NCBI RefSeq assembly: GCF_000378005.1
Contig: NZ_KB899040.1
Location: forward strand, 377,468-441,467
Reading direction: 5' to 3'
Length of the DNA: 64,000 bases
Origin: Coprothermobacter platensis DSM 11748
GTDB lineage: Bacteria; Coprothermobacterota; Coprothermobacteria; Coprothermobacterales; Coprothermobacteraceae
The position numbers and the translations under genes are program-made. This document shows positions 721-45,446 of the stretch, piece by piece. Below the pieces are notes generated by a model. That model was not told the DNA's origin. It was given only the letters and a program-made list of their open reading frames with translations, and did no database searches. How positions within the stretch are numbered: position 1 is the first letter of the stretch; every line of letters starts with the position of its first letter.

Positions 721-730
721 TTTTTATATT

Positions 731-1097
731 AGTGAGCAGACAATAAGCCGAGTTCTGTCTCCACCAAGAATTGGTGGATGGCAACCATTTCTCTGGGCGC
801 ACTGTTGCCAATACGCTCAAGCGGCCTACCCGCCAGCTCGCCGAGCAGGGTCTCAGCTGGCTGCTTGGCCTTGCACCGGATGGGGTTTACCATGCCAGCA
901 CTGTCACCAGTACTGCGGTGGGCTCTTACCCCACCTTTTCACCCTTGCCAACTATTCCCCGATGGGGAATAGCGGCGGTTTGTTTTCTGTGGCACTGTCC
1001 TTGAGGTCGCCCTCACTGGGAGTTACCCAGCATCCCGCTCTGTGGAGCTCGGACTTTCCTCAGTCTCTATTTGACTGCGGTTGCCTCGTCTGCTCTT
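731..1097 (-). ncRNA. rnpB: RNase P RNA (bacterial type A)
   Basis: Catalytic RNA of RNase P, which matures tRNA 5' ends. On the minus strand the universal 5' core GAGGAAAGTCCGAGCTC lies at about 1045-1061 and the universal 3' core ACAGAACTCGGCTTAT at about 743-758. The outermost helix P1 can be seen directly: GAGCAGAC (1088-1095) pairs with GTCTGCTC (734-741). This sets the ends near 1097 and 731 and the length near 365 nt. The 5' ~75 nt overlap the 3' end of rsfS on the same strand. The terminator at 690-720 follows. The exact ends are inferred from P1. Confidence 0.95.
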
Positions 1098-43508: not shown

Positions 43509-44033
43509 TCAATGCAGTTTAACCACTGATGGGTCAGCGGTGCTGGTAGCACAGACAGCGTAATCAAAGCCTGTTACTACCGGCACTTTTTCATCTTCAG
43601 AAAACATTTGCGCACTTGTCAATAATGAGCTTTGAGAGCTCGCTTTGTTCGCCGATTTGTCCAATGGCCAGCATATGGCAAACGTGTGTCCATCTTCCGA
43701 TTCATAAGCAAAAAATGTTTCTAACGTTTTTTGGTGGTTCCAGGGCCATGGTGTGGTTTTCTCGTAGTAGTTTGAAATGTCATCTGAAATGCTTGCTTGA
43801 GGCGATTCCGTACTTAACGCTTGAGAGCCCACAGGATATGTCCCATGGTCGATTTGATATAGTTCTAAATAATGCATTACTTTAGGCGACGAAGCCAACA
43901 ATGTGCTTACGTTTGCGCGTTGCCTTGAAAGTGTGTACGATGGATAAAGTGTCAGCGTTAGCAAAGAGATAATAGCCAACACAACCATTAGTTCCATTAA
44001 AGTGAAACCACGCTTCATTGAACTGCCAGACAC
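43509..44033 (-). CDS. Type IV pilin/pseudopilin-like protein
   Basis: 174 residues. Prepilin leader ends in MKRG, with cleavage before FTLMELMVVLAIISLLTLTLYP, including the +5 Glu; the hydrophobic helix follows, then a globular domain with DHGTYPVG. GTG 44033 has GGGAGG 7 nt upstream, so the leader probably begins MSGSSMKRG. No pilus assembly genes are nearby, so it is an orphan. Confidence 0.85.
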   Translation of the reverse strand: MSGSSMKRGFTLMELMVVLAIISLLTLTLYPSYTLSRQRANVSTLLASSPKVMHYLELYQIDHGTYPVGSQALSTESPQASISDDISNYYEKTTPWPWNHQKTLETFFAYESEDGHTFAICWPLDKSANKASSQSSLLTSAQMFSEDEKVPVVTGFDYAVCATSTADPSVVKLH

Positions 44034-44159: not shown

Positions 44160-44168
44160 TGTTATAAT
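44160..44168 (+). promoter_or_regulatory. Extended -10 promoter of the infC operon
   Basis: TGTTATAAT, the same extended -10 as at 8443. No good -35 is seen. Start near 44175. The stretch 44034-44159 between the pilin start and this promoter shows only the pilin gene's ribosome-binding site (about 44041-44046) and nothing else I can support. Confidence 0.6.
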
Positions 44169-44174
44169 CAAAGA

Positions 44175-44343
44175 CAGAAAAAGAAAAGTGGAAGTAGGCG
44201 CCGTGCCTCACCTATCGGCTGTAAAAGTTAGTGATGCTTGATAGGTTTATATGTTGAGGGCCAGTGGGTGCATACTTTCACCCACTTTTTTAATTTGTGC
44301 ATATGAAGTATGCAAAACCTTTTTCATAAGGAGGTAGAAGAAC
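44175..44343 (+). promoter_or_regulatory. infC-rpmI-rplT leader, candidate L20-type autoregulatory attenuator
   Basis: A ~170-nt untranslated leader. CCTATC (44211-44216) can pair with GATAGG (44240-44245). An intrinsic terminator follows (44263-44291). TGCATACTT (44269-44277) can pair with AAGTATGCA (44306-44314), which conflicts with the terminator stem and loop and could act as antiterminator. In Bacillus the same operon is controlled by L20 binding to its leader (established). Homology of this structure is not tested. Confidence 0.6.
44263..44291 (+). terminator. Leader terminator upstream of infC
   Basis: AGTGGGTG (44263-44270), loop CATACTTT, CACCCACT (44279-44286), then T-run. It lies between promoter and ribosome-binding site, so an attenuator. 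Confidence 0.85.
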
Positions 44344-44925
44344 ATAAGCAGTCCTAAGGATTTAGGTCCCAGGGTTAACGAGCAAATCAGATCGCCTAAA
44401 GTCAGGGTGGTCGACGAAAATGGAAAGCAAATGGGCGTTTTCATCACAGCAGAAGCTATTAGAATGGCACGCAGCAGAGGTTACGATTTGGTGGAGGTTG
44501 CTCCCACAGCTGATCCACCCGTGTGCAGGTTCATCGATTATGACAAGTACCGCTTTGAAATGGCGAAGAAAGCTAAAGAAGCGCGAAAGAATCAGACAGT
44601 CATTGAAGTGAAGGAGATTCGCCTTCGCTTAGGCACAGATGTACACGACATGGAAACAAAAATTAAGAAGATGAGGGAATTTCTGGAAGATGGAAACAAG
44701 GTAAAAGTAACCCTGCGTCCTAGAGGCCGAGAAAGGGCTCTTGAAGAGCAGATTCGTCAAAAATTGTTGTCCATTGCAGAAAAATTGTCTGACGTGGGAC
44801 AGATTGAACAAGATGTCCGCGCGGAAGGCAGAAATTTCTACTTTATGATAGGGCCGAAGAAAAAGAAGGAGGCAACTAAAGATGGGAAAACCGAAGAACA
44901 GCAGGACAGCGGAGAAACGCTTTAA
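44344..44925 (+). CDS. infC: Translation initiation factor IF-3, AUA start codon
   Basis: 193 residues: N-domain PRVNEQIRSPKVRVVDENG, linker KKAKEARKNQ, C-domain KEIRLRLGTDVHDMETKIKK. IF-3 proteins begin about 20 residues before the first ATG/GTG/TTG in frame (GTG 44407). AAGGAGG (44328-44334) is followed 9 nt later by ATA 44344, and an in-frame TAG at 44335 closes the frame upstream. Only a non-canonical start in that interval gives a complete N-domain. Non-AUG (AUU) starts are the known basis of IF-3 autocontrol. The 3' end overlaps rpmI by 44 nt. Confidence 0.9.
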   Translation: MSSPKDLGPRVNEQIRSPKVRVVDENGKQMGVFITAEAIRMARSRGYDLVEVAPTADPPVCRFIDYDKYRFEMAKKAKEARKNQTVIEVKEIRLRLGTDVHDMETKIKKMREFLEDGNKVKVTLRPRGRERALEEQIRQKLLSIAEKLSDVGQIEQDVRAEGRNFYFMIGPKKKKEATKDGKTEEQQDSGETL

Positions 44926-45076
44926 AATCACTGGTTCCGGAAAGTATATGTACCGTTCTGCCATGAACCACTTAAGAAGACATAAAAGTGCTTCCCGGCT
45001 TAGGAGACTAAAAGCACCAAAAGTCATCGATGAAACGTATTTGGGCCACGTACAAGATTTGTTGCCCAGGCCTTAG
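44882..45076 (+). CDS. rpmI: 50S ribosomal protein L35 (bL35)
   Basis: 64 residues, MGKPKNSRTAEKRFKITGSG start and MNHLRRHKSASRLRRLK, as in bL35. GAAGGAGG precedes ATG 44882, which lies inside infC in another frame. Confidence 0.95.
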   Translation: MGKPKNSRTAEKRFKITGSGKYMYRSAMNHLRRHKSASRLRRLKAPKVIDETYLGHVQDLLPRP

Positions 45077-45089
45077 GAGGTGTTCTTGA

Positions 45090-45446
45090 ATGCGAGTTAA
45101 AAGTAGTGTTACACAAAGGGCAAGACATAAGAAAGTACTAAAAGCGGCAAGGGGTTATTTTGGCTCTTCTCACCGCATTTACAGAAAGGCGCACGAAGCT
45201 GTTTTAAAAGCTGGTGAAGACTCTTTTGGAGGTAGGAGACAGCGCAAACGTGATATGCGCAGTCTCTGGATTACCAGAATAAACGCTGCTGCCAGAAACA
45301 ATGGTGTGACGTATTCTCATCTCATGCACGGTCTGAAAGCTGCAGGCATACAAATCGATAGAAAGATGCTTGCTGAACTTGCCGTGACTGACCCGGAAGG
45401 TTTTACCGCTTTGGTTGAGAAAGCCAAGGAGGCAGTAGCCGAATGA
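45090..45446 (+). CDS. rplT: 50S ribosomal protein L20 (bL20)
   Basis: 118 residues, [20 protein letters not shown] start, [20 protein letters not shown] and [20 protein letters not shown]20 is the usual autoregulator of this operon in Firmicutes. TAGGAGG precedes ATG 45090. Confidence 0.96.

Follow-up and report, generated by a model that had tools for sequence, protein, structure and literature searches.

A divergent leader, most likely of the L20 type, precedes infC-rpmI-rplT in Coprothermobacter platensis

Feedback by ribosomal protein L20 acts on transcription in Bacillus subtilis and on translation in Escherichia coli. In B. subtilis, L20 binds the junction of helices H1 and H2 of the leader, according to the account in PMC6097659, and the attenuation mechanism, in which L20 favours the terminator, is outlined there and in PMC10931766. 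In E. coli, the operator combines a long-range pseudoknot with an irregular hairpin, and L20 feedback is exerted on rpmI-rplT, not on infC, as summarised in PMC10931766. L20 leaders are stated in PMC7247131 to preserve two features of the rRNA site, an AA dimer and two adjacent G-C pairs; this also holds for a deltaproteobacterial motif that is described there as built on another scaffold.

Here, we describe a leader directly upstream of infC-rpmI-rplT, whose products IF3, L35 and L20 were confirmed by Pfam, in a genome of 1.42 Mb from C. platensis. The closest named relative of its IF3 is that of Coprothermobacter sp. UBA10526 (91% identity). The window, that is, the whole stretch of DNA analysed, spans 64,000 nucleotides and contains the following features:

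44160-44168, plus strand: extended -10 promoter element TGTTATAAT, read directly, with TATAAT at 44163-44168
44188-44202, plus strand: antiterminator 5' strand GUGGAAGUAGGCGCC, which takes in AA (44192-44193) as well as the 5' strand of H1
44196-44208, plus strand: helix H1 of the candidate L20 site, AGGCG/UGCCU with a 3-nt loop, aligned to helix 1 of model R2
44210-44246, plus strand: helix H2 of the candidate L20 site, ACCUAUC/GAUAGGU (44210-44216/44240-44246) with invariant CC/GG pairs
44263-44291, plus strand: intrinsic terminator, an 8-bp stem (44263-44270/44279-44286) and six U (44286-44291)
44267-44281, plus strand: antiterminator 3' strand, spanning the terminator loop, with part of the left arm before it and the first bases of the right arm after it
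44296-44327, plus strand: 32-nt insert, an alignment gap in relatives L002, L003 and L004, holding 44306-44314 and 44317-44324
44328-44335, plus strand: infC Shine-Dalgarno site AAGGAGGU, read directly, 8 nt ahead of the AUA start
44344-44925, plus strand: infC (IF3; Pfam IF3_N, IF3_C), its AUA start inferred from Shine-Dalgarno spacing
44882-45076, plus strand: rpmI (L35; Pfam Ribosomal_L35p), overlapping the end of infC
45090-45446, plus strand: rplT (L20; Pfam Ribosomal_L20, 1.3e-44), encoding the likely ligand

The leader resembles the B. subtilis-type L20 leader (RF00558) in the operon, in its place before infC, in the core AAG..H1..CUC(G/A)CCU..AGG, in the leader terminator and in having two alternative folds. 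It differs in H1, which is AGGCG/(U,C)GCCU here and AGAAGC/GCUUCU there, and in a score below the gathering cut-off of Rfam. With the E. coli operator it would share L20 feedback on rpmI-rplT, but it lies before infC and carries a terminator. Like the deltaproteobacterial motif it has the AA dimer and the adjacent G-C pairs; that motif is described as built on another scaffold. By our own mapping, the AA and the CC/GG of the leader are the letters meant in the parts of PMC7247131 that deal with the rRNA site. The AUA start is similar to what is seen in rare-start-codon control of infC, a separate layer outside the leader.

Transcription would be expected to start at about 44175, judging from the putative extended -10. 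By eye, TGnTATAAT is also found ahead of the leaders in L002, L004, L005 and L006; in L003 the promoter stretch reads as N and hence lies outside this comparison. At the leader promoter a good -35 was not seen, and the site is absent from the promoter-scan list. Within the operon, the last 44 bases of infC (44882-44925) are shared with rpmI, which is read in another frame, an arrangement suggestive of translational coupling. Divergent from the operon, on the minus strand, a frame at 43509-44033 begins with what looks by eye like the N-terminus of a type IV pilin (GFTLMELMVVLAIISLL), and a class A RNase P RNA is encoded at 729-1096, minus strand (307.7 bits).

Nine genomes of the phylum were sampled, and infC was found in eight. 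L002 and L003 are from the same genus as the window, L004 is from the same family, L005 and L006 from the same order, and L016 and L017 from more distant members of the phylum. Leader family f1 comprises the window and genomes G001, G002 and G004; family f2 comprises G005 and G006. L002, L003 and L004 retain GUGGAAGUAGGCGCC, GCCUCACCU, AGGU and a terminator whose loop and right arm contain UACUUUCACCC. L005 and L006 retain AAG and CACCUCC/GGAGGU; the letters of their terminator hairpins differ, with energies of -9.6 to -9.9 as against -10.8 to -11.8 kcal/mol. L016 and L017 retain AAGUAGA(A/G)GC / GCUUCUCACC / GGGU and are close to leaders from outside the phylum. In the infC leaders of these two, no terminator was found by script; control there may be translational or take another form. 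Both (L016:1366-1500 and L017:2030-2160, minus strand) have a 5' GGGAAA and, a little ahead of the ribosome-binding site, a UUUCCC with which it could pair, a putative pairing that would perhaps serve translational control.

The initial annotation had placed a terminator at 44263-44291, between promoter and ribosome-binding site. It is present as described and is kept, together with its U-tract, in all four genomes of the family that yielded infC (the window, G001, G002 and G004); a fifth family genome, G003, is 68% complete, gave no infC match and is outside this count. A pattern scan alone found six terminator-like sites where shuffled sequences gave 4.2 on average, which is near chance, and the case therefore rests on comparison and conservation. 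The fold of the leader was moderately better than that of dinucleotide shuffles (z -1.97; 3 of 200 shuffles as good).

Searches with RF00558 (L20_leader), which the initial annotation had proposed, gave an end-to-end alignment and a score below threshold. At the gathering threshold, Rfam reported no L20 leader in the window. At low threshold, model positions 1-127 aligned to 44186-44299 with 26.2 bits (E 0.012; 1.2 kb, 4227 families), far short of the gathering score of 58.7 bits. Genome-wide, the leader was the top match (E 0.00313; next match 24.8 bits); rescaled by arithmetic to the roughly 350 bases that precede infC, counted on one strand, this E-value becomes about 4e-7. The top match in G004 (632169-632266, 24.8 bits) is likewise found immediately ahead of infC, and a direct search of the leaders of G001 and G002 gave 26.0 and 29.7 bits; in a multi-genome search these two were not among the matches listed, and other places were. 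With Rfam at E <=1 over 16 of 33 loci, RF00558 appeared only in the window, L002 and L003.

How much such scores mean can be judged from 145 genomes, in which the cut-off was passed in one and many matches fell at about 26 bits. Thirty of these loci were fetched (L034-L063). infC stood behind the match in 11, all outside the phylum and with 33.7-61.2 bits; no IF3 match was obtained in L042 (37.1 bits, close to the end of its contig) or in 18 others, all of them at or below 33.7 bits. Scores of about 26 bits are thus mostly chance. Ten of the 11 outside infC leaders also stay below the cut-off. The gathering score is a limit of the database rather than a mechanistic feature, and the Rfam model is narrow.

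Two covariance models were built independently of the phylum. R1, made from six leaders outside Coprothermobacterota, had its best window match at 44185-44246 (E 0.79), missed the leader of L004 and gave its sole matches in L005 and L006 elsewhere than at the leader. It was too narrow, and R2 was built from 11 outside leaders only. With R2 the leader was the best match in the 64-kb window (15.4 bits, E 0.048). Across the eight infC loci of the phylum, R2 gave six matches at E <=10, the window included, all at the leader and with 15.4-25.4 bits; the leaders of L005 and L006 were missed in this search. The core of the L20 site (H1, H2 and junction) was recognised by R2 only in searches confined to infC loci or to the window, the E-value for the window being 0.019-0.048.

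Genome-wide, R2 scored only 150 candidates per genome. The best match was the infC leader in G007 and G008 only; in the genome of C. platensis the leader was not significant and not among the matches listed. Leaders of family f1 that reach up to 22.8 bits directly were likewise not listed, and the genome-wide search was therefore not used as a negative. One match in the genome that carries the window (L066, 20.7 bits) exceeds the 15.4 bits of the leader; it lies antisense in a nadE-like gene (named by eye) and was taken as chance. The leader is thus recognised by place and score, not by score alone.

Covariation was assessed in an alignment, A7, of 17 leaders, 11 from outside and six of the eight from within the phylum, with L005 and L006 left out. 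Paired cells amounted to 97.3% against 83.8% in shuffles (0 of 500 as high), cells with two-sided changes to 26 against 7.6 (0 of 500) and pairs changing on both sides to 6 against 3.9 (15 of 500), figures to be read with the reservation that A7 favours structure because it was fitted to the model. One helix 1 cell of the window that was counted as paired is sterically impossible (1-nt loop). When partners were slid as a control, 34.6-52.6% of cells paired and the covariation score was at most 0.173, against 0.426. Both helices covary, as the initial annotation had asked of relatives: two-sided changes occur in four of six pairs of helix 1 and in two of five pairs of H2. The latter contains the CCTATC/GATAGG helix noted initially, which is part of ACCTATC/GATAGGT and whose pairing is maintained by compensatory changes.

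The AA (44192-44193 in the window) and the CC/GG are present in all 17 rows of A7 and can be made out by eye in L005 and L006 as well. A MAFFT alignment, A3, had lined up a different AA for L001 (the window) to L004; its invariant columns were discarded and A7 was used. By eye, the leader showed no convincing primary-sequence match to the L20 site in the 23S rRNA of its own genome. Apart from the full 23S rRNA gene (814239-817263), the genome has three partial matches to the 3' part of the 23S model only (G000:C1:1001390-1002018, L077), perhaps a second copy that is broken, incompletely represented or only partly matched.

Identity as an L20 leader, suspected in the initial annotation, is backed by the operon context, the sub-threshold full-length RF00558 alignment, the independent model, covariation and the conserved candidate recognition letters. 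The statement that no sequence identity to the known leader could be seen was too pessimistic, as AAG(N)AG and CUC(G/A)CCU/AGG are common to the window and the Rfam consensus.

In the minimum-energy fold of the window, 44188-44202 pairs with 44267-44281 through 14 pairs with one mismatch. This antiterminator excludes both the terminator and H1. With terminator hairpins set by hand for all f1 and f2 leaders, a fold in which the 5' end pairs with the terminator left arm and loop, H2 being intact, was the minimum in six of six; it was ahead of the best terminator fold by 3.8-7.9 kcal/mol at 37 °C and by 0.4-5.3 at 65 °C. Against shuffles of the 5' segment, the duplex was matched in 6 of 1000 cases for the window and in 3 of 1000 for G004; the other four were weak (50-183 of 1000). 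Families f1 and f2 have the same arrangement in different letters, which argues for function. In leaders from outside the phylum with a terminator found by script, the antiterminated fold was the minimum in two of nine and not in the other seven; a strong default-ON bias may therefore be particular to f1 and f2. For L036, L045, L016 and L017 the script returned no hairpin, and for L005 and L006 it picked wrong ones.

Altogether, a divergent L20 leader very probably controls infC-rpmI-rplT by transcription attenuation. The parts, their conservation, covariation and mutual exclusion were computed; that L20 binds, which way the switch works and that termination actually takes place are inferred. 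As long as L20 is occupied by 23S rRNA, 44188-44202 would pair with 44267-44281, the terminator would be blocked and the operon transcribed (default ON). Excess L20 would bind the H1/H2 junction at the AA and the CC/GG of H2 and keep H1 closed, thereby withdrawing the 5' strand of the antiterminator. The terminator could then form, and transcription would end before infC. Closed H1 corresponds to the terminator state and open H1 to the antitermination state.

The initial annotation had assigned the antiterminator differently, to a 9-bp pairing of the terminator loop (44269-44277, TGCATACTT) with 44306-44314 (AAGTATGCA) downstream of the terminator. The complementarity is indeed exact, but the pairing is not conserved, its 3' partner being missing from L002, L003 and L004; in the minimum-energy fold, 44306-44314 forms a small hairpin of its own with the preceding bases, and because it is transcribed after the U-tract it would come too late for the termination decision. 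With a conserved competitor upstream, 44306-44314 is a very improbable antiterminator. We also give very little credence to an unregulated terminator that is constitutive or ends upstream transcription, as might be suspected from a terminator scan not above chance: a promoter-like extended -10 precedes the terminator, the 5' end can pair with the terminator's left arm and loop in six of six leaders and in two sequence versions, and the nearest long upstream frame, 43509-44033, is oppositely oriented.

A terminator/antiterminator pair alone is neutral with respect to its ligand, and the attenuator could answer to another signal, such as IF3, L35 or the translation of a leader peptide. A 28-codon frame starting at AUG 44251, with a weak GAUAGGU ahead of it, reads through the terminator; no other frame that opens between promoter and terminator exceeds 27 codons, and by eye none of these has a strong Shine-Dalgarno site. 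The conserved part, however, is the L20-type core AAG..CUCACC..GGU, common to 11 leaders outside the phylum, and a signal other than L20 appears improbable.

Control by L20 through attenuation may be accompanied by effects of the 32-nt insert. Its bases 44317-44324 are predicted to pair with the ribosome-binding site and to hide the infC start region; the predicted unpaired probability of this site is 0.01-0.36 in the window and 0.22-0.97 in L002-L004. The insert was considered as a repeat element and rejected, the genome holding no second full copy and a best other match of 21 bases. By Shine-Dalgarno spacing, infC starts with AUA in the window, L002, L003 and L004, with AUC in L016 and L017 and with UUG in L005 and L006. 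The AUA start is no surprise: a candidate AUA, AUU or AUC follows a Shine-Dalgarno-like site in 23 of 32 infC loci, some of them ambiguous, infC of Staphylococcus aureus also starts with AUA according to PMC13009471, and the start in B. subtilis is given as ATT in PMC6097659. A wider picture is doubtful but conceivable: an L20 attenuator in all eight infC-bearing genomes of Coprothermobacterota examined, in three sequence versions, two of them default-ON, and, in the species of the window, an insert hairpin that hides the infC ribosome-binding site and, with the AUA start, adds a translational layer atop the attenuator.

In the open-access literature, a scope outside which most subscription papers lie, no paper linking Coprothermobacter with an L20 leader was found. 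Coprothermobacter, whose phylum at NCBI is Coprothermobacterota, was formerly counted among the Firmicutes, and an earlier survey may therefore have included it. The L20 leader RNA has been called narrowly distributed to Firmicutes in PMC6097659.

The leader is ordinary in kind, most likely a real, divergent L20 leader, and its modest interest lies in the phylum and in the corrected antiterminator. It would extend the well-studied L20 feedback switch to a separate phylum, Coprothermobacterota, and divergent leaders of this kind could help to widen the Rfam model and to indicate which letters are apparently indispensable to the L20 site.
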